A stretch of 64,000 nt of DNA from Chrysoperla carnea (lineage: Eukaryota > Arthropoda > Insecta > Neuroptera > Chrysopidae), in NCBI RefSeq assembly GCF_905475395.1, contig NC_058337.1:97458368-97522367 (forward strand). The letters run 5' to 3'. The position numbers and the translations under genes were made by a program. The stretch's first letter is position 1; each line of letters starts with the position of its first letter. Below, piece by piece: positions 765 through 53,454 of this stretch. Under the pieces are notes generated by a model that worked only from the letters and a program-made list of their open reading frames with translations, had not been told where the DNA came from and made no database searches.

Positions 765-3700
765 GAAATAAAAAAACTGAAAACTCAAAATGAATGTTTG
801 ATACGTTGTATAGATGAAAAACAACAGCTTTTAAATAATTATGTGGAGAAATTTGAAATAATTAACAAAACTAAAGATGAATTAAAAGATGTGCAAGAAG
901 ATGTAATAAATTCAATACGTGATTTTAATATTCAACAACAGTTAAATGATAATTTATATCAATTATTGTGTACAGAACATAAATTAAATTCAGAACAAAC
1001 GGAAGCGGTCATCGATTACTTGACACAATTAGTTGCATGTGACTATAAAGATTCATCAATTCTTAAATGTAAACTAATAGAAAAAATATCAAATTTAAAG
1101 AGCTTATTAGATAATAACAATCAAAAATTTACTTTAAAAATCAATAATGTATTAAATTTAAATAATTATGTTCATAATGAAAATATTGATGTGTCACGAT
1201 CGATTTATGGTAATGTTTTGGATGAAACACATCGACAATATAACAATGAAATTAGTAAAATGGAACAAATTATTATGAATTATGAAAATCAAATCAAATC
1301 ATTACAACAATTACCATTAAAACTTGATCAAGCACAATATACGAACTTGCAACAATTAACGATTGATCGTAGCCAATGTACAAGCTTACAACAAATAGAT
1401 GAAAGTCAATGTACAGCGGATGATAATAATGAATTCGAAAATGAAATTACTTGTATGTTGTTACATGATATTGAATATAAAACTGTTGAAATTGAGCACG
1501 ATGAAGAAGAGCTCCAACAACTTAGATCACAATCAATGGATTCAACGTTTAATTCAATTTGTGAACAAATTAACGAGATTGTTATTCGTTGTGAATCAGA
1601 ACATAATTCAGTTATGCATGTTGATCTTAATAAACAAATTATTGATTTAATAAAAAGTATTGAATATAAACGTAACGAAATTGAATACATTCAACATGAA
1701 TTAAATGTTTTAATTATAAATAATGAGGATAATGAGCAGATTGAATGTAATATTAATGAAATTATACGTTTACACGATATCATTGAACAAGATTTACATG
1801 AATTAAACGATTTAAAAATACGTGTAAATATATCTGAATCAATTTTACATGAAGATGATCAAATATTACGACAAATAAATTTAATACAAAAGGAAATTCA
1901 ATTAAAAGAGAAGAAAATTCATGAATTACAAATGAATTTAAAACGTTTATATGATAGTAACATCGAAACAGAAGATATGGAAGAATTAACAAAATTAATA
2001 AAAACACTGCAAATTGAAATTGAAAATGATCGAAATGCATTGAAAACATTATTTGATTTAGCATCAAATAATGAAAGTAATGATAATAAACAAAGTTTAA
2101 TGAATTATTTAATGAGCTATTTTAAGAAAACTGATTCAATGGTCACAACTTTATTAAAAAATGAACAAACATTTAATAAATATTTATCAACAGTAAAAAA
2201 ATTAAAAGAATTTATTGAAAAGAATGAAAATGAAATAAAAAATTTATATCATAAATTACAAGAAAGACAAAATGATCGTAAATTTATGTCACAAATAATT
2301 GATCGTATTAATCAATTACAAAATGGTATTAATAAATATCAAAATGATATTCTACGAATTTTAATAAATATACCAACAACGGTTATACATAATATTGAAT
2401 GTGATGAAATTAAAGAATACATACTAACTGTTCAACGTTTAGCTAATGAAAATATTAAAGCGAATAATGAATTAAATTACTTAAAACAACAGCAATCATT
2501 ATTTGAACTTAGTGATAACGTTGATAAATTGAATGAAATTGAAAATCAAATGAAAAAAATTGATCAAAGCGTACGAAAAAATCGTGAAAAAATATATACA
2601 ATTAGTACATTATTAACATTATTCCCATTAAAAGAACGATTACCTGTTCATGGTGGAATATCATCAGTTTCGTGTATTAAAGGTGATAAATATATATTAT
2701 CAATTCGTACTTTACAAGAATTAATTGAACAAAATCAAAAATATGTAAATCGTATAAAAGATCAAAAAACACAAATATCTCAAGATCAAATGCAATATAG
2801 AAATCGAGTTTATCATTTACAAGGTGTAATTAATAAATATATGAGAGAAATATTAAAATTAATTGAATTTTTACCAGATGTCGATATCTTGGCTATGATA
2901 AATGATTTACAATCGAGACAGTTGATTATTTTTAATGATTATACAAAGATATTAAAAATATTAGAACAATTAGAAAATGAAGATGACATTGATAAAGTTA
3001 ATGAAATTCAACATGAAATAACGAATGCACAAAAACAAATATGTTATGATAAAATACAAAAAATAGTACGAGAAATAAATGAAAAATTATCGACTGGTTC
3101 AATATCAACACATCTAGATCTTGAGACAACAAAAATTGTTAATGATATTTGTGATTTATTGACAAAAGTTGAATCAGCTCAACGTAGTTTAGAGCATTGT
3201 GCAATACATTTATCACAGTTATTACATAATTATCAAACAATGAAACTTGATAACGCTAAAGAAATTGAACAAATGGAGAATGAAATTAAACAATTTAATC
3301 ATATTATAAAAATATTAGAACGATGTAAAGAAATTGAAGAAAATGATGGTAATGATGTTGGCAAATATTTAACTGAAATTGAAAAATTAAAACAAAAAGT
3401 TGATGAATTACAAAAGAAATTGGAACAATCGGGGAATATGGTTGTTTATATGGATGCAATAAAACATTTACATTCGCATATTTCTAAATTAGATCAACAA
3501 AATCGTGAAAGGGATCGTATTGAACTTCATCAAGAAATGACAATGAATTATATACAAAAATTAACGCATGCTGTTGATAAATTACATCCATCTAAGAAAG
3601 GTGAATCAACATCAATCGCTCAACAAAATATACAAATTGATATACCAAAATCAGTTGAATATGATCGAGTAGAAATATCATCAGATATACCTATTGAAGT

Positions 3701-6700
3701 GTACAATTTAAGAGTTGATAATGAAGAATTAAAAACAACACAAGAAGATTTACTAACACAAATGAGATCAATTGAAGATGAGAATAGACAATATCGTGAA
3801 GATATCGATGCGTTACAATTGAAATATCAAACAGCACTTCAAGACAATGAAGCGTTACAATTAAAGTATGAAAATGCAATACAAGATCTAGAAAGTTGCA
3901 ATGCAAATTCAAATAACATAACAGCACAATATGAGGAGAAAGAATCAGAAATTAATAAATTAAAAGAACAAATTTCACATTTACGAACACAATTAGATAC
4001 AATTATCGAAGAGAATATTCATTTGATAAAAATTAATCAAAACGGACAAAGTGAGCAGCAAAATAATTATCCACAAGAAACACTTAGTACTGGCTATGAT
4101 GCAGAGGAAAGTGTTAAAAAAATTTTATCAAATCAAACACAACATCAGAACTATATTGATGAACTAGAAAAACGTATTGAAAACTATGACTTTATAATAC
4201 AAACCATTGGAACTGATGGACATTTTACTCATTTATTTTTAATGATCGGTGAATCGATTCGTGCTTTAGAAGGAAAATTACGTGATGCATATGATCAAAT
4301 TGCAATATTACGTTGGAATGCATTAGTTGATGAGAACCTAACAAAAATGGCGAAAAATTGTTTAAAAGACATGCATGATAAGTTAGATGAAAATAGAAAT
4401 GAGGTCACAATTCGAGAATTAATGAATACAATACATCAATTGGAGAATCAAATACAGATAATTAAAAAGGATAAAATGAACCCTAGCCATTATAGTGAAG
4501 CTCAAAAATCAGTTAACTATCACTTCGATCAATATTCAACAGGTTTAGGTAAAACATATACAACTGCTAATGTTCAAACTGCATCAATTAATTTGGTAAC
4601 TGGAGATGCTTATATACAAACCGGCAGACCTGGCATAAGTAGTTTATCCAAAAATTTTGTTCTTGAATTGGACATAGAAGCAGATAACACTGAAGGTACC
4701 ACCGTATCTCAAAGAACAGAAACTGAAATGTCAACATCTGACTCGGTGATGCATGATACGATTACTGCAGCACATGTTCAAATACATTCTGGAAAAATAA
4801 TGGAAAAACAAAAAGAAAATGAGAATTCAAAACAAGATTTAAGTGGACTATCTCAACATTTATTTTCATTCAGATCTATGATTCAAACTAATTATAAATC
4901 CCATGGAAAAATAGCAGATACTGATATATTTCATGACTCAAATCTTGCAGAAAAGGTGTCTAAAAGCTCACACAATACTATTTATTCATCTCCATGTGCT
5001 TCTCAGTATATTATCCAACCTAGTACAAGCACTTTGGGAACATTAAATACAGATTCCAGGCCAGTGCGTCGTATTCATCATTTTGGTCGTGGATATACAA
5101 ATCAGTCAACGCAAGAGGTACCTATGTCTGGGGTTTCTATGCCTCAACGGTATTCTTATCGAGGATCACCACAAAGACATATCATTGGATCACAACATAT
5201 ATCAAGCCAAGTCTTAGGAAATTTGACAAATATATCAGAACCAATTTCGAATTTGTCTGACAGTACACATATTGTGCGTAACCCTTCAAAGCCACACAGA
5301 ATTTGTTCCAATAAGAGTAGCAGGCCTTCATCAGTCACGAGAAAAATTCCCTCAACGGGCAGACATTCATCCCGATCCATTCATATCCATAGTGACAGTG
5401 TTGATTCTGAAAATTCTGAACAAATTGATCAAGTAAATAACTATTCTATTTCACCTGGACCAAGACCAATTAAAAATAATTTATCGACTCTAAGAGGTTC
5501 GAGTCTTAATAAACATAATTTTAATCAGCCTGGCTACTCAAAGAATTATTCTTTGCGGGGAGCTTCAACTACTCCCGATGGTATAATATATTATCAACAG
5601 CCACATGCATCTCAATCTTTGGCGGGCGAGCAACAACAAAGTACCACTCAAACATCAGTACGTAATTGTGGAGGTTTAAGAGGTACTACCTTAGATCATC
5701 AAAATTATCATCAACGTGACTTATATTCTTGGCGTGGTTCTCCAAAAATCGATCATGGGATTCACAATAACGATTGCCGACCGAATACTCTTTCCGCTCA
5801 AAGTCATGTTGGAGGCTCAAATGATGATTCTGTTTATTTACAACGATATGTCAATCTCGGCGGCATTTATTCTTTCCCTAAAAAAACTTCTAAAGAACAA
5901 CCACCCTTCAATGTTGATGACCAACTTCCTCTCAAAGAATCTTTGGCATACTCTGATAGAGGAATGGATGACACACCTTTAAGACGACACAGTTCTTCGC
6001 ATTTACAGTATCCAGTAATGGATGCACTGAATGAAGTTATGGCTTTAAAACGGAAATTAGCAGGTAATATTTAAATACTACTTCAGAAGTCTGATACTAA
6101 TTACCGAAAATTAGTATTCGAAATTAATAATTCGAATTATAACTAATCAATTTTTTTTTTTTTTTTTTGACAAAGATTTTGAAAATAAGGCAGCTCAAAA
6201 TTTAGCAAATTTAAGAAAGCAGTATGAAAGAAATGCAAAAAGCCTTATCCATGAACATAATAAAAGCGTATCGAAATTATCTTTTATGCAAGATGAAACA
6301 ATTCGACAGTTAGAAAATGAAAATGATAAATTACGCAATCAAGTACATCATTTATTACAAAAATTAACTAATCGTGAAAAGAATGTACAAAGCCTGAGTA
6401 GCGTGTCAACGGGAGAGATTGATATACCTCCTAGTCACACAACAATGCACGCAATGCACTTACAAAATAAAAAAGTTTTGGCAAAAACAGAAGGTGATCA
6501 GAAAATATCAGAAAATGTGAAAGGCGGTTGTGAAAATGTATGTGATCCTAAAAAAGTACAAATATGCGATAAGTTAATTTGTTATCATGATGATCTTAGT
6601 TGTACAGACAGTTGTTTCCCAGATGAAGGATGTGCCGAAACCTTCGGAGATTGCGGAGAAAAATGTGTATGTGTATGTTTTGCAGAAAAAGCAACACAAA

Positions 6701-12689: not shown

Positions 12690-15600
12690 ATGCATTTTAT
12701 GCTATATATTTATATTCATATAAGTTTTGCTTTATTTATTAATTCACAAAATTTAAATAAAAACATTTGCAATAGCAAAGAAACTTGTAGTGAATGTATT
12801 CAAGATGGGTGCATTTGGTGTTCGAAAATTGTAAGTCTATCTTTAACGAATATTTGATTCTAATTTCGTCGTAATTAATTTGAAGTATTTGAACAACTCG
12901 GCGTTCTTATTTTAGCCATGTTTAGTCATTTACGCATTACCACCCCTGTATTTTCTAATAAAAACAATATTATTTCTATGGATTCTTTTTTCGCGATATT
13001 CGTGTTCAGCGACTCTAAAAACCCCCTTGTAATAAGAAATCATTTTCATCATTGTTAACCGAATTGTGAAGTTAGTATTTACGGTCAATTTATGCAATTA
13101 TAAAATGCATATACAAAATTTCCTGACGCTCTAACGAATCGAATGTCGAAAACCGCATTCAAATCCAATTTACTTTTCAAATTTTTCGAACTTGAACCAT
13201 TTTTTGTGTTTTTTTTCTTCGTCTAAAAGTAATGTTATGAAAACTGTTATTATCTGCTAGCCTATTATAATAGCTGTCAACTGTTGCTTGAGATGATTAC
13301 TTGCATTTATAACATTGTTTCGAGTATAAGCATTATTTTATCATAACAAAATTTACAGGAAGATTCAAAACCAGAAAGTACATCATTTACTAGATGCATT
13401 GAAGAATCAACAAGATATTCTGAATGGTGTCCAGATAATTTTGTAACAATTCCAAAATCTAATTTAACAATATTAAAAGATTCTGATCTTAATTCAGATA
13501 CAAATAAAAACGATTCAATCGTACAAATTCGACCACAAAGAATTCATTTAAAGTTACGCCTTCATGAAGAGCAAATAATAAATTTTCAATATTCTCAAGC
13601 TATTGATTATCCAGTGGATTTGTATTATTTAATGGATGTATCACTCTCAATGGAAAAAGTAAAAGATACTGTATCAAAATTAGGAGGTAAATTAGCAATT
13701 GCTATGCAAAATTTGACCAGCAATTTTCGATTAGGGTTCGGCACTTTTATTGATAAAGTTGTTCTGCCATTTACCGATCGTGACGCGTGAGTATTATTCA
13801 ACAATTAATATTTAAATTATATCATTATTAACTAATCAAGCAAATAAACAGGTATTTATACATTTATGTATGTCAAAATCCTTGCCAAAAAACTATTATC
13901 TACTAAGATCTATGTAAGCAGTAACATAGCGTGAAAGAGCAAATTGCTTATCATGAATGGTAGCGTTATAAACAATTAAACCGAAAACCAGGTCGTTGAA
14001 ACTCAATCAGCCGCAAAAACCAGCTCAGCGGCCGGAGTATACAGATTTAAAAAAATTTGTTGTACGTACCTATCTCGTCTAGAGGGTACCTAAGATATTT
14101 ATCGATAGTGTCTAAGATATCTAGCTTCACAAGTTTTCGTAATGTTTTGTCTTTGTCGTTTTGCAGAAATTAATATTTCTGTACGTCTTAAAAACATGGT
14201 AATTTATTTTTTAGTGTAAATACTGCAAAATATGCGTCACCGTATAGTTTTCTAAACAATTTACCATTAAATGAAAGTGCAAAACTGTTCACGGAAAAAG
14301 TAAAAACAGCGCAGTTATCATCGAATGTGGATCACCCTGAAGGTGGTTTTGATGCCATATTACAATCAATTGTATGCGAAGAACAAATTGGTTGGCGATT
14401 AAATGCTACAAGATTGCTAATATTTTCCACGGATGCATCATTTCATCATGCTGGTGATGGTAAACTTGTAGGTGTTATTGAGCCCCACGATGGTAAATGC
14501 TATCTAGAAAATGGTTACTACACGCAATCATTAAAATTTGACTACCCATCAGTAGCGTTGTTAAACTATTATGTGAAAAAACACAATATTGACTTAATAT
14601 TTGCTGTTACAGAGAAAGTTAAAAATATTTATCAACAGTTATTGGATCGTATTGACGGATCTCAACTGGCAATTTTATCAAGTGATACTGATGAAGTAAA
14701 AAAATTAGTTATGGATAAATATAAAGTAAGTATTTTATACTGTTCGAAATGATTTAGGAGAGTGATAAATACTTTTCAAATCGGTACAAAAATATTCCTT
14801 TTCATTGTCCAAAGTAATGAAACTTTCAATTAGAGACCATGCCCTAATTCTAGAACGTATAAGGTCAAAATTAGAAACTCACAAAAAAATGAATGCCTCT
14901 TTTTACCGATTCAATGAGATCTTTCGGAAGTCACAAAGCTGAGTCTGTTTTCTTGATAGCGTCTGTTTAATTCTGCCAATCTTGATATCCTGGGCGATAC
15001 CTACGACAAGCGTAGTATCCTAAAAGTAACTACGCTTCAACCAGTACTGTATTGTTTTCTTATAAAAAAATCTTTATTCCTTAGAAACTGAAACAATCTG
15101 TGCTAATAACAGATAATGCAACATCCGATATTTACATTGAATATTTTTCATCATGCACTGAACGAGCAGAAGAAAAAAAAACAAAAGAATGTCATGATAT
15201 TCGATACAATAAACCAGTAAATTTTAAAGCTATTATAAAAGCAACAAGTTGTGGAAAGAAAAATCATGTAATTGAGATAAAACCACGATCATTGAGTGAG
15301 AGTTTAATTGTGGAACTTGAATTACAATGCGAATGTGATTGTAAACAACCTGAACACGAGGAATATGAAGAGAATTCCAAACATTGTTCATTAAATGGTA
15401 CTTTAAGTTGTGGAGTTTGTAATTGTAACTCAGGACGATTTGGGAAATTTTGCGAGTGTAATGAAAATGAAGGTAATAGAATATTTTCATTTTTAGAATA
15501 ATGTGTAAAAAAATTATTATTTGAATAACGTCTCAATGAGGAAATGATATTTTTGTGGCAGAGAGTCGCTACGTTGTTTCAATTTGACAAAAATATTTTT

Positions 15601-17737
15601 TGGCAGATATCGAAAAATAATATTCCTACTTTTCATCTTATATTGTCAAGTTTTAACCAAATTCACCATCAAAATTGCAAATTTATATTTTTTTATATTT
15701 GTGTACTACCGTGCTGATACATCCTTAATTAGTCGGGCACAACGACTTTTTTTTGTTTTTAATTTCCATCTACTAGTTTTGGAGAAATCTATGAAAACAT
15801 ATCATCTATCTCCCGTTTTACCATAAAATCAATCTTATGGCTAGTTTCGAAGTCATTTATTTATTTAAATACTCGGACAACCCCTCCGTAAAATTTTCAG
15901 AATTAATTTAGACTTAGTCCAAACTCTTATAAAATAATCAAGCTTTTTATTCAAAATTGCCATGGTGCTTGCCCTTAACTGTGCCGTATGCACAAATTCG
16001 TAAATTCTTTATATGCGATATTTGTGTCAGAAATGCCCTCACAATATTTTATGTAAAAAAGTCTACTTTCATTTCTCAATTGAAAATTCACTACTCATGA
16101 ACTTATGAATACCATAATGTGAAATCTTATTCTAGGTGCAATTACTGTTGATAGTTGCAAAATGCAAAATACAACCGACGAATTGCCATGTTTGGGACGT
16201 GGTAATTGTATTTGTGGTAAATGTACATGCGACAAGGAATATTCTGGTGCTTATTGTCAATGTGATAATTTTTCATGTAAAAGATATAATAATAAAATAT
16301 GTTCTGGAAATGGTATATGTGATTGCAATCAATGTAAATGTAATCCTGGATTTAGTGGATCAGCATGTGAATGTGACACCAGGGAAGAAAGTTGTATGGC
16401 AACTGGTTCACAAGATATCTGTTCTGGTAAAGGAACATGTGATTGTGGCGAATGTAAATGCCAAACACATCCAATACGTTACTGGGGACGATTTTGTCAA
16501 ACGTGTTCAAATTGTCCAGGGCAACGTTGTTCTGAGTTTGTGGATTGTGTTGAATGTCAAGCGTTTTCCAATATGGGAAAAAATACAACGAGTGATTGTA
16601 GCATTTATTGTGCAAATATTACTGTGAAAAGTGTTGATAAAGTTAAGAAATATACTGAAAATGAGCAAGTAATCGAATCTGTTGACGATAATTTTAAGTT
16701 GTGTGAACACATAAATGATGATGAATGTACCATATTATTTAAGTACACGTATGATTCGAAACAACAAATGACGTCGATTGAAGTCCAAAAGCATAAAATA
16801 TGCCCCCGTAAAATTGATTTTTTGCGTAAGTACCTATTATCATGTAAATATTAATGACATCATATAAAAAAAAACACTGTATTTTACTTTGTCATATTCG
16901 TTGAGCCCATAACGGAGCGTCATATGTAGCAAATTTAGAAATTATATACTAAATAAATTTTTCACTTTTAACAAGAAGTATTCAGGAAGCTGTTAAACAC
17001 TCACTTATCTTTGCTGAATGCCACAAAATACAATAAAGTTTTGGAGAAATTCATTTCCTTACGGCTTCACATTCTTGCTAAAGATATAACCAGAGTACCA
17101 AAATCTTGTTGTTTTTAGTTCTCGAAGTGCATATATGCGTACTTCTACAAAGACTGTTCGCAAATAAATTGTTTAGATTTTTGCAATAATATTATAACAA
17201 ACTGTTTTTTAATAATGTTCTCAGTGTTAAACTTTAGATCACTATAAAATATAAAAATATTTATTATTATTATGGGAAGAAATTTAATTGACAACTAATA
17301 TGTCAAACGCTGGACACATTTTCCAACATGTCATTGCAGGATTAGAATACCTCCTTCTATATTACTTTAGGTTGGTGTACATGGTTGTTTTAGCGTGCTT
17401 TATGGTATTTTTTTGTACTGCCAAAACAACAAAATTTGATCCAACTAAAAAAACTGAATTGAATATTTTTTATGTTATCTATTTTAATTGAACTAAAATA
17501 AATTTTAACCTTCTAGCAATAATTTTATTGGTGAGTGGAACTATATTAATAGGTGGAATGATTATATTAGTTATTTGGAAAATTGTTACCGAAGTACATG
17601 ATAGGCATGAATATACTCGGTTTGAGAAAGAACGACAATCTTCAAAATGGAATAATGATGAAAATCCACTTTATAAAGGAGCGACAACAACCGTAAATAA
17701 TCCAATGTTTAATAAACGAATTAGTGTTAATTGTTAA
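12690..17737 (+). CDS. Integrin beta subunit, first tandem copy (divergent)
   Basis: Beta chain of a heterodimeric adhesion receptor; single-pass membrane protein of about 792 residues. Exons: 12690-12830, 13359-13786, 14215-14725, 15085-15472, 16136-16825, 17517-17737. Domains in order: a weak signal peptide; PSI ([14 protein letters not shown]); hybrid/I-like domain with MIDAS DVSLSM (13635-13652) and the [12 protein letters not shown] loop; I-EGF repeats in exon five ending [18 protein letters not shown]; beta-tail domain; one transmembrane segment (exon six); cytoplasmic HDRHE, NPLY and NPMF motifs. Oddities: the two ADMIDAS aspartates after the MIDAS are Lys-Val, the specificity-loop Cys pair is missing, and one I-EGF is about six residues shorter than in the downstream copy. 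Exon phases match that copy exactly. The tail resembles fly beta-PS more than beta-nu. Start chosen as the first ATG before a hydrophobic stretch with an upstream stop. Confidence 0.93.
15607..15788 (+). repeat. Dispersed repeat in intron 4 of first integrin gene
   Basis: This segment, which includes ATTAGTCGGGCACAACG, is the reverse complement, with divergence, of 21263-21490 in intron 2 of the second integrin gene. The copies lie in different introns and opposite orientations, so they come from a mobile repeat and not from the gene duplication. Confidence 0.7.
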
Positions 17738-20321: not shown

Positions 20322-23300
20322 ATGATGAATAATTTGAAGTTTTTTTTTGTTCTATTCATTGTTGTAAATATAATTTGCATTACTTTTGCACAAAATGTGA
20401 ATAAAAATGTGTTATGTGGTACAAAAGAAACTTGTGGAGATTGTATTCAAGAAGATGGTTGCATATGGTGCTCAAAATTTGTGGTAAGTAAAAAAAGTCC
20501 TATATTAAGCAACGCGTTTTTCGATCTCCGAAATCTTACGTGTCAAATACATTTATTTCAGAAATCTTCAGAATCTGGAACAAGTAATTTTGTAAGATGC
20601 ATTGTAGAATCGGAAAAAACACCAAACTGGTGTCCAGAAGATTTAATAAAATATAATCCTGAACCAGAATTAAAAGTAATAAAAAATTTACCATTAAATT
20701 CAGTACCAAATAAAAATGTCCCGATTATACAAATTAGTCCACAAAGAGTTCATTTAAAATTACGGCGTAATCAAGAATACAATTTGACTTTTCAATATGC
20801 TCAAGCTGTCGATTATCCGGTAGATTTATATTACTTGATGGATTTGTCCAATTCAATGGCCGATGATCGAGAAAATTTGTCAAAATTAGGAGATAAATTA
20901 GCTGATGCAATGCGTAAATTGACCAAAAATTTTCGTTTAGGATTTGGAAGTTTTGTGGAAAAAGTTACTATGCCATTTGTTAGTACTGTTCCTGAAAAGT
21001 AAGTATCTGCCATTTAGTACTCTCACATAATCATCAACAAATCTGTGCATGGGACCATTTTAATGAACTATTCCACATTTTATTTAGAAGTATTCCAATA
21101 TTTTCACAGCTCCAAGCACTGGTAATTGCAACCGATACTGAATTTCAAAATCGGATATCTTCTCAAGCTCTGATCCTTCGTTAAATTAATTTGTGTATGA
21201 AGTATATACGTTGGCTGTTGCCCACACTGTCTTGGGTTTGCTAGAATGTTTCAAAATATTCGTTCTCCAAAACTAGTCAGTGGAAATTAAAAAGAAAACT
21301 ATTTAAATTAAAGTTAAAACCTAAATAAATTATTGAAAACAAAAAAACCCGTTGTGCCCGACTAATTAAGGATGTATGAGCACGGTAGTGGAGACACAAA
21401 TTTAAATAAATATATATTTTCAATTTTGATGGTGAATTATGTTACAACTTGACAATAAAAGACGAAAAGTAAGAATAAAATTTTTCGATACATGGAGTAG
21501 TTTTAAAAATATCGCGAACTGAAAATATACTTCCACCGTTTTTACAAACACCACAATTAGTTATATATTCTTATTTGATTTAAATATATTTATGTATACT
21601 TAATGACCCATTTTTCAGGCTTCAAAAACCATGTTCTTCAGCTAATTGCACCGCTGCCTACAGTTACAAACATCATTTAAAACTTGATTCGGATACATCC
21701 AAATTTACAATAGAAGTAAACAATGCCAGGGTATCTGGAAATTTAGATTCTCCTGAAGATGGATTTGATGCCATTTTACAATCAATAGTGTGCCAAAAAG
21801 AAATTGGTTGGCGTGAGAATGCAACTCATTTGTTAGTATTTTCTACAGATGCTGGATATCATTTAGCTGGTGACGGAAAACTAGCAGGTATTGTTGAACC
21901 TCATGATGGGCGTTGCTATTTAAATGATAAGGGGGAATATACACATGCATTAAAGTTTGATTATCCATCTATATCGTTCATAAATCGTCATGTTAAAAAA
22001 CATAATATTGATCTATTATTTGCTGTTACAAAAAATGTGGAAGAAACGTATAGAAATTTAGCTAAACGCATTGCTGGAGCTCAAGTGGGAATATTAGATA
22101 ATGATTCTAAGAATGTTGTGAGCTTAGTCAGCAATGTATACCAAGTAAGTAATAAGTTTATACATTGTCAATGTTTAAGGGTTGATGGGACATGCTGTGT
22201 ATTCAAAATTCAAATTATAAAAATTTCTGTATTCTAATCATTTACATTATTTTTCTAGAAATTAAAACAATCAGTCTTTATAATAGATAATGCTGGATCC
22301 GATATTCAAATTGACTATTTTTCTAAATGCTTGGAAGATAAAGAAGAACGGAAAACAAAAAATTGTAGTGATATTCGTTACAACAAAATAGTGACTTTTA
22401 CTGCTGCAATAAGACCTACAAACTGTAAAAAACAAATAATTGAAATAAAGCCACGATCTTTAACTGAAAGTTTAGTTATTGAACTTGAAGTCCAGTGTGA
22501 TTGCGATTGTGAACAGTCAGGACACAAATCATTTGAAGCTGATTCTCAATATTGTAGTTCAGCGGGTAATTTGACTTGCGGTGTGTGTTCATGTAATAGT
22601 GGGCGCTTGGGGAAATTTTGTGAATGTGCTGATGATTCAGGTAACAGTATAAGAATCAGAACCAGTTGTCAAAATTTTTACGGACAAAATACATTTAAAA
22701 AGTCTGGAAATAGTTTCCACAATCCCTAGTTTCATCCAGATTACGCTGTTGATGATTGTACAGCTAGCTTGCATGTACCTATACACAAATACCTACTCAA
22801 GGGAGTTTGTTTTTGTAATTTGTTCATAGAGATCACGATGCCGCAATCTGAGTCTAAAAAATTTAAAGAACTCCGCAATATTAGGTAGGAAAATGGCTTT
22901 CTGTGAAACTTTTCTAATCACCTAAAAATGTTCTTTGGATCATTCTGATCAAAAGCTCTCACGGCCACAAAAGTTTTCAGAGAGAAGTTTTTGAGCTACG
23001 GGCGATCAAAGCTATACGAATATATTACAGTTTTATTACATGACTAGGAAAATGGCTTTGTGTGAAACTTTTTCAAACCACCCCAAAATATTCTTCAGAT
23101 TGTTGTGATCAAAAACTCTCCCAGCCACAAAACTTTTCAACGAGTAATTTTCGAGCTACGGACGATCAAAGCTACTATATTATATTTATAGTACTTATAT
23201 GACGAGGAAAATGGCTTTCTGTGAAACTTTTCAAACCGACCACAAAATGTTCTTCGGATCGTTCTGATTGAAAGGTCTCACGCCCACAAAAGTTTTAACG

Positions 23301-24772
23301 AGTAGTTTCTAGCTATGGTATAATGTATGTGTACCTTTGATTGCTCGTAGCTTGAAAACTACCCGTTAAAAATTTTTGTGGCCGTGAGAGCTTTTATTCA
23401 GAATGATCTAAAGAACATTTTAACATTTTAGGGTGGGTTAAAAAAAGTTTCATCGGAATCCATTTTCCCATCTAATATTGCGGGGTCCTTTTTCGTTGCA
23501 ATATTTCATGAAAATTTAAGCGATTATGTTTACAGGTTTATCAAATAGTGCGGATTTGAATAGTTGTAAAATATCTAATAAAACCGATGAACGTGTATGT
23601 TCAGAGCGAGGTAAATGCAAATGTGGAAAATGTGTTTGCGATAAAGGTCGACAACCTGGTGAAGAATATTCTGGTCCTTATTGTCAATGTGATAACTTTT
23701 CATGTAAAAAACCAAACAATAAAATGTGTTCAGGCCATGGTACATGTGAATGTCGTCATTGTATTTGTGATCCCGGTTTTACTGGATCTGCCTGTGAATG
23801 TGATTTACGACCAGAGAGTTGTATTGAACCCGGGAAAACAGAAATATGCTCTGGTAAAGGATCATGCAGATGTGGTGAATGTATTTGTCAGACACAACCA
23901 ATTCGTTATTGGGGACGATATTGTGACATGTGCTCAGATTGTCCTGGACAACGTTGTTCTGAATTTGTCGATTGTGTTGAATGTCAAGCATTTCCTAATA
24001 CTGGAAAATATTCTATTGAAGAATGCAAATTGTATTGTAATTTTACAACTCACTTTGACGACGGTGATAATAATGATGTTAATTTCAAGATCTGTGAACA
24101 TATTGATAATAATGGATGTACTATGTTATTTAAGTATACCTATGATATGAATAAGCCAACCGTTTATGTCCAAAAGGAGAAAAAATGTCCTGCTAAAGTT
24201 GAACTTTTACGTAAGTATTATTCTTAAAAGTGGCATAGTTTCCCTTTTTTCTTTAAATTATTTCAAAATGTTTAAATGGTTCGGTATAATCACAATAATC
24301 AGTTGTATTAACATTTTTGTGCATCAGTTGTATTCACATTTTTGGAATTGGTGAAGGAGGTTAAGGGATATAAAATAAGCTTATGTCCTAGCAGCAAAGT
24401 TGGAGGGTGTTTTTGAGAGATGAAAAAGGGGTGGGAAATTGTGGTCAAAATGAAATGTGTTTAGTAAAAAAGTTCTAGATCACGCCAAAATTTAGCCAAA
24501 ATTTATAACTTAACTTATGGGTAACTTATTGGTTTAAAAAATAATTGTTATATTATATTGTTTCAGCCATAATGCTGCTTGTAATTGGAACAATTGTGTT
24601 AGCTGGAATAATACTTTTAGTAATATGGAAAATTGTTACTGAAGTGCATGATAGACGTGAATATGTACGATTCGAAAAAGAGAGACAGAATGCAAAATGG
24701 GATCGTGGGGAAAATCCACTTTATAAAGAACCAACGACAACTATTAAAAATCCATTGTTTGAAGAATCGTAG
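20322..24772 (+). CDS. Integrin beta subunit, second tandem copy (conserved)
   Basis: About 795-residue beta-integrin. Exons: 20322-20483, 20562-20998, 21619-22144, 22259-22640, 23536-24210, 24567-24772. A clear signal peptide (FFFVLFIVVNIICITFA) is followed by PSI ([15 protein letters not shown]), an I-like domain with MIDAS and intact ADMIDAS (DLSNSMADD, 20841-20867), the specificity loop Cys pair PCSSANC, the NLDSPEDGFDA loop, I-EGF repeats, a beta-tail domain, one transmembrane helix and a tail with HDRRE, NPLY and NPLF. All metal-coordinating positions I can check are present, so this copy looks like the functional standard. Intron 1 is only 78 bp and has no in-frame stop. Intron 4 carries a transposon. 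The five intron phases (0, 2, 0, 1, 1) equal those of the upstream copy, showing tandem duplication. The last residues of the distal motif are Phe, where fly beta-PS has Tyr. Confidence 0.95.
21263..21490 (-). repeat. Second copy of the integrin-intron dispersed repeat
   Basis: Reverse-oriented relative of 15607-15788. It includes CGTTGTGCCCGACTAATTAA and lies within intron 2 of the second integrin gene. Confidence 0.7.
22865..23490. mobile_element. Inverted-repeat element with internal 159-bp tandem repeats
   Basis: Three direct repeats beginning AGGAAAATGGCTTT start at 22887, 23046 and 23205 (period 159 bp). They are followed by an inverted copy to about 23472. The ends CCGCAATATTAG (about 22873) and CTAATATTGCGG (about 23473) are inverted, so the whole is an element with long TIRs and expanded inner units. 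It fills most of intron 4 of the second integrin gene. Confidence 0.75.
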
Positions 24773-29600: not shown

Positions 29601-32600
29601 ACATTTTCATCAAAATCAAATGCTAAAAATTTATATCGCCGAAGAAATTCATTAAAAGGAACACGATGTGGATAGCCATTTTGTCGTGCTTTTGCCGTAT
29701 CTAACACAGCCAACGCACGAATTTGTTGTCGTACTAAATCAGTTTGAAATCCTCTTGCAATACCTGATAAATCAGAGCGTATACATCGTACAAAATGTGT
29801 TCCACCACTTCCTGCACCAATTGCTAATGTCTTTAGTACTTCTAAACCCGTTGTTCGGAATATATGACTTGCAGTACGCATTTTACGAGTTTGGGAGAAT
29901 ATACTACCGGGTACATCAAAATTGACCTTCTACAAAAATAAATGAATTGAGTAAAGTAAATTAAACAATGAAATTGCTATTATATTACCCTAATTTTTTG
30001 GGCTTCTTTGACAACAGCTGCACTCCAGCGTGCTTTTCGTGTTGTATTTGCCATAACTGATTTTTCTTCGTCTAACGATAAATTACCTGTTTTAGTTAAA
30101 GCATTTGTGAAAAATTGTCGAATTTCAGTATGTTTTGACATTCGAAATACATCAATTACTTCTGGTGGTAGAAAATCACGATTTCGTTCGGGCATTTCTT
30201 TTACCGAATATTGTACAGTTCCAGTGTAATGTGCGACCGCGAATTCTCGTGTACTAAGAACTTTAATATGTGGAGTTTTTGATGAATTTTGCAATGCATC
30301 TAAAAAAATTAATTCGAGTAATTGTAATGATTTGAGTCCTTGCGATTCTACTGTATTTCATGTTACCTGTAATTGCTTGCCCTGTATAATAATTACGAGA
30401 TGCGTCATCAATATAGGAAAACAGCCCATATGATTTTGCTAAAAGTTCATCGACGGTGGCACGATTGTCGTAATATGTCATTGGTGGTGCTGGAACATGT
30501 TCTTCTTGTTGCTCCAACATTTCCCATGCAAAAACACGTTGAGAATAATGATATTGCATTTGTTCGTTAAAGGAATTGATAAAAAGTTGTTCGAGACGAT
30601 TCTCTTTATTGCATTCAAAACCAAAAAGATCCAAAACATTGATAATATATTTATCGCCACTAAAAATGATTTACATTCATTATAAAAATTGCAAGGTGTA
30701 TAGGGGAAGGTAATACAAGATGATCCCATTGGGTTAGATCACTCTATTCAGTCGAATGAAATTTTTTGGTAGATATAAAAATTACATAGCGTTCAATGCT
30801 GACTCTAATACTGATTAATTTTTTTCGTATTTAATTGAATAAAATGACTTAATTTAAATTTTCTAAAATAATTCAACATTGTTTGAAACGTAATATGGCA
30901 GTACCCAGATAAATAAAATGACATTGAAAAATGCTTTAGGACATGTTAACATTATGTTGAATATTTTTTTATTTATGAGCATTCTCCCTTAAAAGGATCA
31001 TATTTTACCTTCTTCACTGTACAAAATTTAAAAAATACGTACAAAACTGCACGGCCAAATGATAATTTATAATTAATTAAATTAATAATCCAGTCAACTA
31101 AGCGAGAATACAAATTATTCGCTAAATTATCTCTGGCATCCCTAGCTTCATCACTTGTATGTTTTTTTCTAATCGCAGTACCCTCTTGTATACTGCAATA
31201 ATTTGTGAGTGCCCAACTTAATTTTTTTTCGTCCAACTGCAATAATTCAGCAATTATGGTAATTTCTTCTGGATTATCAATTTCAGCAATTTTATCAGAA
31301 GTATCCTTAAATTGCACATCACCTAAGTGTAAAATTGCCGCTAGCACAGTCCAAATTACATCACAATGTGTTTCTTCTATGCCTAAATCTAGGAGATTTT
31401 GTTGAATAATTAAAAATTGTTTAAAATTTGATTTCGGATTATCACGTGGCCTAGACGATAATTTTGCTTTTGTATCCGGTAATCGAAAATATCTGTATGG
31501 TCTACCAGGTTGTAATTTATATTCAGATAATTTATTTTCGGCTTCCAAAGCATCATAAAAATAGTAGAAAATATGAAAATTGGCTTGAGACATATCTGTT
31601 GATGAAACACGCCACTTTTCAAGTTGATAAAGCCAAAATATGGCGCCGCTTATTTTACCAGCACTTCCAAACGTCGTCTGCGTTTGTAAAATGCATCTGG
31701 TTGAATTTGGATTTAAAGCTGACGATGCATTGGCAAAGCCATGTATCACTGTTATAGCTTTTAACACTTGCTCTCCACTCTTATTGTTTGGACTTTGCCC
31801 CAAGAATGCCAAATGTTCAATTAAGTGAAGAAATGACGTGGTTTTTCCCGACATACTTTCACCAGCCAAAACAATATGTTGAGGTTCTTCATGATGTAAT
31901 ACATCTTGAAATGCGCTATCTGCGACAGCATAAATATGCGGAGCATTATCCGATCGAGATTTACAGCAGTACTTGACGTGATACTAATCAAAAACAATAA
32001 AAGAACAATTGTTAAATGCGCAATTAACTATAACGTACTATAACGTTAGTTGTATTATAAAGTTAGTTGTAAGAATAATTGCTTATTTATGAACGATATT
32101 TTTTATATTTTCTAATCAACTTTATATGTATCGAAGACTGTGATCTTTCGAACCTAAGATAATGAATACTGTATGTTTCAATGTCGAATCACTTAATGTT
32201 TATTGCAATAAATCGAACATAGTAAACAAAATTTACTCACATCGTGGCTATAAATATCTTGTCTTTCATTTGGATTTAGCACTAACAAAACATCTCCGAT
32301 AAACGTATAAAATTGGCCAATATTCATTCGTTCTCGTAAAAGTGAAATAATACTTTCTTCTGTAAGCTTTTCTAGTGCTGCTAAATCTTCTTCAAGCATT
32401 GATTTGAGTTCACCATCTAATCCAGTTTTCAGCTTTTTCTTATATAAAATACATTCGGGTTTCTTCTCGGCATTTGTTGCAAAATCATTTTTTAACTGGC
32501 GCAATTCTTGTGCCAACTATATGTGGGAAAGAAATCAAGCATAACATAAAAAAATCAGATGATGGATACCAGAATTCATATCAACTACCTTCAAACTACC

Positions 32601-41600: not shown

Positions 41601-43226
41601 TTTCCCCTGGCCACCCTAAAACTTGAGAACGGGTGGAACAATTTCGCTAATTCTTTCTTGTGTTGTGTTAATTATTATGAAAGAAAAAATTAAGGAAGTT
41701 GAGCGGAATATTAGAAAATTTCAGACAAAATATTGAGTGCAATAAATGGTGGAAGCGCATATAAATCATGCATTATATTAATTTATTATGTACTTATGTA
41801 TTTATTTGCGCTCCGATCATATACATCTAGAACGGGTATTTATGGCACGCCATTTTACTATTTAATAGGCTAATTTTTATCGAGAAAAAAATTAATTAAT
41901 TATTTTTTTTCAATCAGAAATTTTATATTTTGTAAAATAAATCTTAGTAAAAGAGAGGTTGATATAAGATAAGATGAGAAAAGAGAGATGAGAATTAAAA
42001 TTATGATGATAACATAATAAAAATGTATTATTATTATGTATCATCATAATAATAATGTATTATTATTATGATGATACATAATAATAAATCAGTTAATTTT
42101 ATTCGAATTAGATTAAAAAAAAGTGATTGAATTAAAATTATGTACATAATGGAAATATATGGCACGCCGTTTTACTATTTAATATGAATTAAAATTATGT
42201 ACATAATAAAAATGATTGAATTAAAATTATGTACATAATGAAAATGATTATTATTATGATGATAACATAATAATAATATATTATTATTACGACCATTTTT
42301 TTTCGGACATTAAATAGTAAAATGGCGTGCCATAGGTATTTGAATAGTATTAAGGTAGTATTTATTATTATTCATAAATTTTGAATAGGTATTTATCAGA
42401 GCTATATCCGAGCACAGCGAGGTCCAAGGCCGAAGGCTTCAGCCAGGCCGAAGGCTTGTCTAAGAGACAGTAGTAAAATTTATGTTTAGCGGACGAGGCA
42501 AGCAGAGCCTGGGGTTGTGGGTGGGCTTAATGGACTTAGGGCACGGGCTAAGCAAAGTATAGCAAAGTATTAGCTATTAATCCCTAAAATTTTTGAGCTC
42601 AAAATCTTTATTTCTTCTGCTATTATCCAAACCACCTAAATTTTCTTCTTCCAACAATCTCGCAGCAAACCCGGAGATCAATGAACTGCCACATGACAAC
42701 GATAATTTGGCCCTAGTCTAAATTGTATATTTTCTTTTAGGGTAAATTTAGATTGAGTTAAGTAAATCAATAGTTTTTGTAAATTTATTATATTTCTTAA
42801 ACGGTGTATTCAGGTTTATAAAACATGATTTAATTATATGATGACACTGTTTTCATATTGTAGGTAAAGTATAGGCTAGCAACAATAGTTTTAGATGTGT
42901 TGTATTCATAAATAAAACTTGATACTTACTTCCATTACAAACCAAATCTCATCGCATGGTTGGCTATTTTTCTTATACACTCCATAAAAGTCTGGTAAAT
43001 TGGTATGATCTGAATAATCACGCAATATTTTATACTCTTCTTGAATAAATTGTGAATTACTGTCAGTATATTTTTGTATTTTTATGGCAACTTTTTTGTC
43101 ACTTGCTTTTTTATCAATTGCCAAGTGTACTTCACCAAATACACCACTTCCAATACATTCTTGTAAATCATAACGTTGTGTCGGATCTTGTAAGTTTGAT
43201 ATACGCAAGGGTGATTTTGAAGCCAT
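26661..43226 (-). CDS. ninaC: NINAC-type class III myosin (kinase-myosin)
   Basis: Phototransduction motor/kinase of photoreceptor rhabdomeres, orthologous to Drosophila NINAC p174. Thirteen coding exons, minus strand, all in phase: 43226-42930, 36894-36790, 33461-33253, 33191-32909, 32516-32241, 31983-31043, 30659-30367, 30299-29989, 29929-29487, 29429-29263, 29201-29014, 28000-27801, 27450-26661; about 1500 residues against 1501 in the fly. STE20-like kinase first: glycine loop GSGVFGEVH, lysine in [20 protein letters not shown], all intact (Arg replaces the usual catalytic-loop Lys). Then the myosin head with P-loop [14 protein letters not shown], and [12 protein letters not shown]-like segments ([34 protein letters not shown]); the conserved NINAC tail ([15 protein letters not shown]); and a Ser/Pro/Asn-rich C-terminus ending VIDL, a possible class II PDZ ligand. 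Start MASKSP follows an acceptor at 43262-43263, so 43227-43261 is 5' UTR and further 5' UTR exons lie upstream. Confidence 0.95.
28541..28730 (+). repeat. Dispersed repeat in ninaC intron
   Basis: Non-coding segment in the 1-kb intron between the exons at 29014 and 28000. It contains GAAACCCAGCTAAATCGATT and GTTGGAGCCGTTTCCGAGAT. Such strings occur as dispersed repeats in insect genomes, probably retroelement tails; this is from recall. Confidence 0.45.
34877..35191. mobile_element. MITE family A, complete copy
   Basis: About 315 bp with long arms: AATAAAAAATACTTTTTAAG at the left and its complement at the right, continuing through ACTAAAAAGTAGAAAATAAT and CTTGAGGCG. A fragmentary relative lies at 53877-54068. 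Confidence 0.8.
35711..35765 (+). repeat. Dispersed repeat ending in (CCTAA)3
   Basis: CCTATGGTCTAAGG leads to a CTAACCTAACCTAACC tail. A related sequence in the opposite orientation is at 62237-62290 (GGTTAGGTTAGATTATATTG...AGGCCATAGG). The tail resembles the insect telomere unit TTAGG, but the context is interstitial. Confidence 0.5.
36357..36384 (+). mobile_element. Helitron-like 3' end
   Basis: The hairpin GCGGACGAATCCGC is followed by AGATAAAAG and CTAG, with T as the next base. Helitron 3' ends have a short hairpin a few bases before CTRR and insert before T. Only the end is recognisable, and a retroelement tail is an alternative. Confidence 0.45.
37337..37587. mobile_element. MITE family C
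   Basis: Near-complete palindrome of about 250 bp. The left arm AAACAAGAAAATATTTTCAT...TTGTTATGATAAGTA is mirrored by TACTTATCATAACAA...ATGAAAATATTTTCTTGTTT. The outer parts include AACTAAAATCC and its complement. Confidence 0.8.
37676..37997. mobile_element. Hairpin MITE, family D, copy 2
   Basis: Termini TACAGAATGTTCGATTTA and the complement. The inner arms carry the same TGCGTTAAGCAAT core and GTGAGAGGTATTATA as the copy at 24955-25251, but the outer termini differ. This suggests a second subfamily sharing the subterminal core. Confidence 0.8.
38521..38601 (+). repeat. 27-bp tandem repeat, three perfect copies
   Basis: Units start at 38521, 38548 and 38575, each beginning AAGATACTTTTGTTTGAAGA. 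They lie in ninaC intron 1. Confidence 0.95.
41690..42560 (+). mobile_element. Dispersed repeat family R, copy interrupted by a MITE
   Basis: AATAAATGGTGGAAGCGCAT at about 41742, GAGCTATATCCGAGCACAGC at about 42400 and TTTAGCGGAC at about 42485 match, in order, the forward copy at 56880-57185 and the reverse copy at 56374-56670. Here the order is broken by an insertion at 41841-42334. The reverse copy ends in a Helitron-like hairpin with CTAG, so the family may be Helitron-like. Confidence 0.6.
41841..42334. mobile_element. 494-bp MITE with 26-bp TIRs and 6-bp target duplication
   Basis: Both ends are the same perfect 26-bp inverted sequence starting TATGGCACGCCATTTTAC. They are flanked by GGTATT at 41835-41840 and 42335-42340. 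A further direct copy of the end with one mismatch lies inside at 42158-42183. The interior is rich in ATTATT/ATAATA runs and repeated AATTAAAATTATGTACATAA. Confidence 0.88.
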
Positions 43227-43320
43227 TTTTTTAATATCTTTAATTTTGAAGTAAAATTTTTCTGAAAAAAAAAAATACAATTTATATGCAGTTAAAAATA
43301 GAAAGTAATTTATTTGTTTA

Positions 43321-43350
43321 CTAGCTGTGAACTACTCGCTTCGCTGTTAA
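43321..43350 (-). mobile_element. Helitron-like 3' end, reverse orientation
   Basis: CTAGCTGTGAACTACTCGCT followed by TCGCTG. Read on the minus strand it ends CAGCTAG before T, preceded by an imperfect GCGAAGCGAG hairpin. It lies just upstream of the first ninaC coding exon. Confidence 0.4.
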
Positions 43351-52509: not shown

Positions 52510-53106
52510 TTATTTACAAACAGTAATCCATTCTTCATATGTACAATTTTGACATTCAACAAAACAACACCAATGAAATCGACAATGACAGCGTTCAATA
52601 CGTCTCTGTCGGACAATATTATAGCCACGACCACAACACAAAGACGCACAACCGTCACCTCCCGTACTCGTACGGTTACATCGTCGCCCAACCGTACCTG
52701 GTACATCCACAGATACATCTTTTTCACAAAAATTTGGTGAACGTTGATAATATAACAAATCACTTGTTAAATCACGTTTACGATGTAATTTCATTTTACG
52801 TGATGTTCCACCGCGTGGTTTTTGTCGTGGCCTTTTATTTGGATGATTATTATTGCTATTAGCACCGCGTTGATTTTTTGGTGGGCGTTTTCCACGCCGC
52901 GTACCACGTATTTTATTGTTAACATACAGTAATGGTGTACCATTACCTAAATTTGATTGATCCACTAAAATGGCTTGACGAAAACGTTCTTTTAAAATTT
53001 TACCAACAACACGAAAATCTGGTGCAGATTTCCAACACGTTTTTAATTGACAACTGCCTGACATTCCATGACATTTACAGCGTACTTGCATGTTGTTCGC
53101 AACTGC
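52510..53106 (-). CDS. Wnt10: Wnt10, last coding exon (partial)
   Basis: Secreted lipid-modified ligand for Frizzled receptors. The exon encodes the C-terminal 198 residues, phase 0, after the acceptor TTTGTTTCAG (53107-53116), to TAA at 52510-52512. The motif CKCHGMSGSCQLKTCW carries the Ser that Porcupine acylates (first Ser of SGS). The C-terminal Cys domain is complete: NFCEKD, GTVGRRCNRTS, GDGCASLCCGRGYN, ERCHCRFHWCC, and a final VCK. The pattern CGRGYN..RQ.R.ERCHCRFHWCC and YYQRSPNFCE is that of Wnt10 and not Wnt1 or Wnt6. Between the two halves is an Arg/Lys/Pro/Asn-rich insert of about 45 residues. Upstream exons are not visible and should lie to the right, at or beyond the window edge. 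Confidence 0.93.
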   Translation of the reverse strand, partial: AVANNMQVRCKCHGMSGSCQLKTCWKSAPDFRVVGKILKERFRQAILVDQSNLGNGTPLLYVNNKIRGTRRGKRPPKNQRGANSNNNHPNKRPRQKPRGGTSRKMKLHRKRDLTSDLLYYQRSPNFCEKDVSVDVPGTVGRRCNRTSTGGDGCASLCCGRGYNIVRQRRIERCHCRFHWCCFVECQNCTYEEWITVCK

Positions 53107-53454
53107 CTGAAACAAATAAAAAAAAGTTTGTAGTTCATAATTAAATTATAGACACTTCATCCATCGTTTACCAAAACACATGTGATCTTTCGGGTAAGTC
53201 ATTCTACGAAATGCAAATAACTTGAATTTTGATTTCGTCCAAAGTAAATTTCTTAACGATAATTAATCAATTTTCAAAAAATTTGTTTTATAAAATTCTC
53301 TGTGAATGGCTGAGACTTGCGTAAAGGCAATTAAGTTAGGATATAAGCTGTTTTCAATTTTAAATACAGAAATATCCTATGTAATTATTTGATTGAAAAC
53401 TTTGTTGCTTGATTACCAAAATTGCATTCATTTAGACATTTTTTTATCTCAGCC

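Follow-up and report, generated by a model that had tools for sequence, protein, structure and literature searches.

What kind of receptor, if any, is encoded by a beta-integrin gene that has kept its ligand-binding metal site and lost the aspartates of the regulatory ADMIDAS? The window considered here, i.e., the whole stretch of 64,000 nucleotides that was analyzed (C1:97458368-97522367 in a 559-Mb genome), carries two beta-integrin genes in tandem, both on the plus strand, and raises this question for the upstream gene, referred to below as copy 1. Its downstream paralogue is referred to as copy 2.

The tandem pair and the other integrin genes

12690-17737, plus strand: copy 1 beta-integrin gene, six exons, 792 aa from a putative signal peptide to the NPxY/F tail
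12690-12830, 13359-13786, 14215-14725, 15085-15472, 16136-16825, 17517-17737 (stop included), plus strand: copy 1 exons
12690-12830, plus strand: copy 1 exon 1, putative signal peptide and start of PSI, with a hydrophobic N-terminus in an open frame
17657-17710, plus strand: copy 1 cytoplasmic NPLY and NPMF motifs, read from the model (PF08725)
20322-24772, plus strand: copy 2, tandem paralogue, six exons, 794 aa, consensus splice sites, one open frame
20322-20480, 20562-20998, 21619-22144, 22259-22640, 23536-24210, 24567-24772, plus strand: copy 2 exons

The gene models were built from the DNA alone, using splice sites and homology. In copy 1 the splice sites follow the GT/AG consensus, a single open frame runs through the gene and the exon layout is the same as in copy 2. 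The betaI domain is matched by the Pfam model PF00362 (E=1.4e-88, residues 129-366), and the EGF modules, the beta tail domain and the cytoplasmic tail are covered by PF23105, PF18372, PF07965 and PF08725 (1.8e-12 for the beta tail domain and E=3.4e-21 for the cytoplasmic domain, PF08725). One transmembrane (TM) helix is present, as judged by eye. The PSI cysteines align with those of copy 2 and betaPS; among the Pfam matches at E<=0.001 there is no PSI model. Judged by its sequence, copy 1 is a member of the integrin beta subunit family.

The introns of both genes carry repeats. Intron 4 of copy 2 holds at 22865-23491 a direct repeat with a period of ~160 bases, in three copies (66-100%) and with inverted arms of 104 and 49 nt, which resembles a small repeat or a transposon remnant. 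Inverted repeat arms are also present at 15608-15758 in copy 1 and 21336-21490 in copy 2 (97 and 78 nt, 88 and 79% complementary), and these probably represent one family inserted in both copies. Elsewhere in the window, one open frame at 765-6074 encodes 1769 aa, apparently coiled-coil by eye, without a Pfam match at E<=0.001. The minus-strand neighbors at 26661-53145 include a myosin head (30976-31983), a protein kinase fragment (42909-43331) and a Wnt exon (52513-53145), all assigned by Pfam.

The genome search, in which only the best candidates were scored, returned at least four beta-integrin genes. Two form the tandem pair, the third lies on C3 and is of the betaPS type, and the fourth, on C5, is divergent. 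When exons 2 and 3 of copy 1 served as queries, the candidates scored fell at the same four places. The first-pass annotation treats the animal as an insect, with which the presence of a betaPS-type gene agrees. The betaPS-type model comprises 833 aa in 11 coding exons, with a tail ending NPIYKQATTTFKNPTYAGK, and has a Gly/Ser-rich insert of ~40 residues before betaI (in the hybrid-domain exon) that is absent from both tandem copies. The C5 sequence (~49.771-49.772 Mb) was assembled by eye from tblastn pieces and covers the head only. In it, the ADMIDAS Asp-Asp and the cysteine pair of the specificity-determining loop (SDL) are present, while NLDNVDGG stands against NVDHPEGG of copy 1 (a Glu to Asp change in the MIDAS) and ASDS against STDA of the others. 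The ligand site of the C5 gene also looks altered, in a different manner from that of copy 1. More than two beta subunits are known in insects, with five in Spodoptera litura and Bombyx mori (excerpts of PMC10379305 and PMC9218073). On the alpha side, PF08441 gave one match (C2) and PF20806 three (C2, C3), too few exons being caught to count genes.

Metal sites and specificity-determining loop of copy 1

13635-13661, plus strand: copy 1 beta-MIDAS motif DVSLSMEKV, ADMIDAS D8-D9 replaced by Lys147-Val148
20841-20867, plus strand: copy 2 DLSNSMADD (GAT TTG TCC AAT TCA ATG GCC GAT GAT)
13746-13757, plus strand: copy 1 FIDK, equivalent of the SyMBS aspartate (D179) kept, by alignment
14318-14347, plus strand: copy 1 SyMBS/MIDAS loop (NVDHPEGG), coordinating residues kept, by alignment
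14429-14440, plus strand: copy 1 TDAS, beta4-alpha5 aspartate D263 kept, by alignment
14678-14698, plus strand: copy 1 beta6-alpha7 loop SSDTDEV (SNDSSNV in betaPS), by alignment
14216-14233, plus strand: copy 1 SDL VNTAKY, aligned to CSSANC of copy 2; both c8-c9 cysteines lost, loop six residues shorter
21629-21649, plus strand: copy 2 SDL PCSSANC with the normal disulfide pair, by alignment

The first-pass annotation read DVSLSMEKV in the first gene and DLSNSMADD in the second, with Lys-Val in place of the ADMIDAS aspartates, and the codons bear it out on both points. The copy 1 motif is encoded by GAT GTA TCA CTC TCA ATG GAA AAA GTA, with Lys147 at 13656-13658 and Val148 at 13659-13661. The corresponding motifs are DLSKSMEDD in the betaPS-type gene on C3 (ADMIDAS codons GAC GAC) and DASYSMMDD in the fourth gene, on C5. 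Lys-Val is therefore found in one of the four beta-integrin genes scored by the genome search and Asp-Asp in the other three, which makes Asp-Asp most simply the ancestral state and Lys-Val derived in copy 1. With Lys-Val at these positions, copy 1 also departs from the typical talin-activated pattern, DXSXSXXDD. From GAT or GAC, D to K and D to V take two nucleotide changes each, four altogether, and the alignment is ungapped there.

The same annotation had described the MIDAS and the NxDxPEGG loop as intact. When copy 1 is aligned with copy 2, betaPS and two human subunits (beta1 and beta7), equivalents of all its MIDAS residues are present (D140, S142, S144, E232 and D263), as are those of the SyMBS (D179, N227, D229 and P231). 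The description thus holds for every coordinating residue, although two normally conserved, non-coordinating neighbors in the SyMBS loop differ (Gly to S226 and Leu to V228). MIDAS and ADMIDAS positions are named here as in the excerpts of PMC6889490, where the beta6-alpha7 loop forms the other arm of the ADMIDAS in typical integrins. This arm has changed too, since Ser is replaced by Thr348 and Asn by Glu350 in columns that are invariant in the other three paralogues.

The cysteines point to a second loss. Of the 56 canonical cysteines, 54 are retained in copy 1, and the missing two are the c8-c9 pair that forms the SDL disulfide, now V191 and Y196. The excerpted text of PMC2397394 and PMC1538996 links the c8-c9 loop with the choice of both ligand and alpha subunit. 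The loss of this pair, together with the altered beta6-alpha7 loop, suggests that ligand and partner specificity has probably shifted as well as metal binding, so that the earlier reading of copy 1 was incomplete. The cysteine count does not bar copy 1 from the family, as accepted integrins (vertebrate beta4 type, coral AmItgbeta2 and Podocoryne IntB) are also without c8-c9.

Are these losses real? The copy 1 model comes from splice sites and homology only, and the SDL change falls at the exon 2-exon 3 junction, where an error of sequencing, assembly or gene modeling might take this form. The reading frame of exon 2 stays open up to 13790 and that of exon 3 from 14192 onwards; neither stretch beyond the chosen splice sites contains a Cys codon, and shifting the sites would consequently not restore c8-c9. 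A micro-exon in the intron was likewise sought: of 24 in-frame candidates, three contain Cys and none is like the copy 2 loop. The ADMIDAS change, moreover, consists of four separate nucleotide changes in mid-exon, and apart from copy 2 and the C3 and C5 genes no other copy with Asp-Asp appeared among the best candidates scored in the genome searches. An artifact as the source of the copy 1 losses is hardly credible on these grounds.

Divergence of copy 1

In a tree of the betaI domains of the four paralogues, copy 1 groups with copy 2 as its sister (ultrafast bootstrap 95%; the next topology is 7.4 log-likelihood units worse), with branch lengths of 0.53 for copy 1 and 0.23 for copy 2. Identity over betaI is 56% between copies 1 and 2, 52% between copy 1 and betaPS and 62% between copy 2 and betaPS. 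Unique replacements were taken as the Tajima counts of copy 1 vs copy 2 with betaPS as the outgroup. They amount to 90 vs 47 over the whole protein (p=0.0002), and by region to 41 vs 18 in betaI (p=0.0028), 8 vs 1 in TM plus tail (p=0.02), 7 vs 2 in the second hybrid part (p=0.10), 10 vs 4 in the beta tail domain (p=0.11), 7 vs 6 in the first hybrid part, 5 vs 3 in signal peptide plus PSI and 12 vs 13 in the EGF modules. The copy 1 excess is greatest in the betaI domain, yet extends beyond it.

Within betaI, copy 1 deviates at 21 of the 87 columns that are identical in the other three paralogues. These deviations comprise 15 of the 26 columns in the beta-MIDAS motif, SDL, SyMBS and beta6-alpha7 loops vs 6 of the 61 elsewhere (Fisher p=6e-6, an optimistic value because the loop regions were fixed after the first list had been viewed). 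The same count gives 6/72 for copy 2, 4/70 for betaPS and 35/101 for the C5 gene, in the last case without a concentration in the loops (5/16 vs 30/85). Between copies 1 and 2, pairwise dN is 0.31 and dS 0.88 (Nei-Gojobori), with a dN/dS of ~0.35 that is rough, as dS is near 1; on this rough measure the pair is constrained overall. Pattern matches in prokaryotic and viral contig collections (24 + 20), a source uninformative on insects, included no relative.

Faster change may also reflect relaxed constraint or early decay, in which case copy 1 would be heading to a pseudogene and its changed sites would carry no new function. Such an explanation accounts for the overall excess of unique replacements and for a betaI branch about twice that of copy 2, as well as for changes that hit normally conserved functional loops. 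At a dS of ~0.9, however, copy 1 still has 792 codons without a stop or frameshift, consensus splice sites, 54 of 56 cysteines, its NPxY/F motifs and all MIDAS and SyMBS residues, and its EGF modules have been spared, which is unexpected under decay. We consider decay unlikely.

Predicted function and comparison with known integrins

In typical integrins, the ADMIDAS ion links the MIDAS serine, the two aspartates and the beta6-alpha7 loop, and restrains the movement of the first helix towards ligand (excerpts of PMC6889490). On balance, and with modest confidence, we favor a reading of the sequence in which copy 1 encodes a tandem paralogue that is functional and diverging, free of ADMIDAS control and altered in its choice of ligand or partner. 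It would have originated by tandem duplication, with its divergence clearest in the ligand-binding head. Ligand would still be bound through the MIDAS metal, but there would be no ADMIDAS Ca2+ to connect the beta6-alpha7 loop with the first helix of the MIDAS. Without this ion, Ca2+ would inhibit and Mn2+ activate less strongly, and affinity would respond little to metal exchange at this site. The rebuilt SDL would probably alter the ligand or the alpha subunit that is accepted, while the tail is expected to reach talin- and kindlin-type adaptors as before.

These predictions differ in strength. The first-pass annotation expected altered metal regulation, possibly with the receptor locked in one affinity state. 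The former part is sound, because the ADMIDAS side chains are lost while the MIDAS and SyMBS are kept in an intact model; on the sequence evidence, loss of metal control is a firm prediction. The latter part goes beyond what the sequence shows, and the precedents disagree on direction. In alphaVbeta6, Asp-Asp to Asn-Asn raised the affinity in Mg2+ 6-fold, while the response to Mn2+ dropped from 12-fold to 3-fold; a beta8-type beta6-alpha7 loop raised affinity 13-fold (PMC6889490, as excerpted). With alanine at both ADMIDAS positions, in turn, affinity fell in alphaVbeta6 as well as in alphaVbeta8. In beta8 it rose 2-fold when one or two Asn were changed to Asp, and the headpiece stayed closed when beta8 was given Asp-Asp plus a third change [same excerpts]. 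The divergence among these mutants indicates that the effect of the ADMIDAS depends on context, and given such opposite outcomes the affinity of copy 1 may be raised, flat or lost. Our preference, weaker than our confidence in the loss of metal control, is for a receptor that can still bind ligand and whose basal affinity is raised or flattened.

A beta subunit of the beta8 type, without the ADMIDAS, would be expected to bind no ADMIDAS metal and to show no headpiece opening. Copy 1 shares with this type the lack of Asp at positions 8 and 9. As in human beta8 (alphaVbeta8), both ADMIDAS aspartates are replaced, the MIDAS is kept and the beta6-alpha7 loop is altered (excerpts of PMC6889490). 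The replacements are not the same, being Asn-Asn in human beta8 and Lys-Val in copy 1, and the excerpts on beta8 mention no loss of SDL cysteines. The beta8 type would be marked by the lack of an (Asp/Asn)-Ser motif in the beta6-alpha7 loop, where copy 1 has Asp-Thr, whose Thr could still hydrogen bond. The two also differ in the tail: according to the available excerpts, human beta8 binds a distinctive cytoskeletal adaptor, whereas copy 1 keeps its NPxY/F motifs. Membership of copy 1 in beta8 was considered and rejected, since it scores 204 bits against human beta8 vs about 283-270 against beta1, beta7 and beta3; the loss of the ADMIDAS is accordingly convergent and independent of that in beta8.

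The zebrafish beta1 duplicates offer a different precedent. In beta1-3 and the truncated beta1 paralogues, as in copy 1, a duplicated subunit has Asp-Asp replaced (by Ser-Asn), an altered SDL and a retained MIDAS, and beta1-3 also keeps the LIMBS/SyMBS residues (excerpts of PMC1538996). Unlike copy 1, beta1-3 has all 56 cysteines, including the SDL disulfide, and the truncated forms are described there as being without TM, tail and the essential LIMBS glutamate. In the same excerpts, the authors suspect that beta1-3 is constitutively inactive and propose that it could be dominant-negative, citing alpha5beta1 that is constitutively inactivated by ADMIDAS mutation and mentioning preliminary, unpublished data on the same double change. 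By analogy, copy 1 might be a low-affinity or dominant-negative subunit, whose binding state is left unstabilized without an ADMIDAS ion and which pairs with alpha subunits and tail adaptors with little binding of ligand, and so damps its siblings. The weakening of alphaVbeta6 and alphaVbeta8 by alanine at both ADMIDAS positions (PMC6889490, in the part available) fits this explanation, and loss of the SDL disulfide could contribute. A pure decoy, however, would have no need of the MIDAS and SyMBS coordinating residues, all of which copy 1 retains, and coral AmItgbeta2 and vertebrate beta4, both without c8-c9, are nonetheless treated as ordinary integrins in the excerpted text of PMC2397394. 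We regard a damping role as possible but rather doubtful.

The SDL loss has its own parallels. The vertebrate beta4 type is without the c8-c9 cysteines, and so are coral AmItgbeta2 and Podocoryne IntB, which resemble copy 1 further in having a MIDAS and two NPxY/F motifs and in being otherwise typical (excerpts of PMC2397394). With its ADMIDAS change of DDL to EDL, AmItgbeta2 is the nearest precedent for the combination found in copy 1 (same excerpts). The coral subunit nevertheless swaps one acidic residue for another, such that a cation could still bind, whereas in copy 1 both positions are non-acidic. The two sister paralogues of copy 1 keep both features, and its losses are therefore independent of the cnidarian ones. 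The nearest insect comparison is betaPS (the C3 gene), with the same domain order as copy 1 and a tail with NPxY motifs; it differs in its Asp-Asp, its SDL cysteine pair, its Ser-rich insert and its 11 coding exons vs 6.

Collectively, the comparisons suggest that each copy 1 loss has a precedent and that what is apparently new is the conjunction of both full losses, with uncharged and basic residues at the metal site, in an otherwise canonical NPxY/F-tailed subunit. Among the titles and abstracts listed from the literature searched, outside which most subscription journals lie, none concerned an insect beta subunit without the ADMIDAS aspartates. The debate on how far the ADMIDAS sets affinity has so far drawn on mutated vertebrate heterodimers, which gave opposite results. 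An animal that has few beta subunits and, among them, a natural tandem pair, one member with and one without the ADMIDAS, would allow the matter to be tested outside vertebrates. Beside beta8, the pair would also add another example of joint change in the ADMIDAS aspartates and the beta6-alpha7 loop, here in a subunit that retains its NPxY/F tail.

A speculative variant, which we hold to be quite improbable, concerns Lys147 itself: its ammonium group might replace the ADMIDAS Ca2+ and bridge the MIDAS-serine carbonyl, the beta4-alpha5 aspartate and the beta6-alpha7 loop. Were Lys147 such a built-in cation, a regulatory metal would have been swapped for a fixed positive charge, and Ca2+/Mn2+ exchange at this site would be ineffective while Mg2+ at the MIDAS would still be required.
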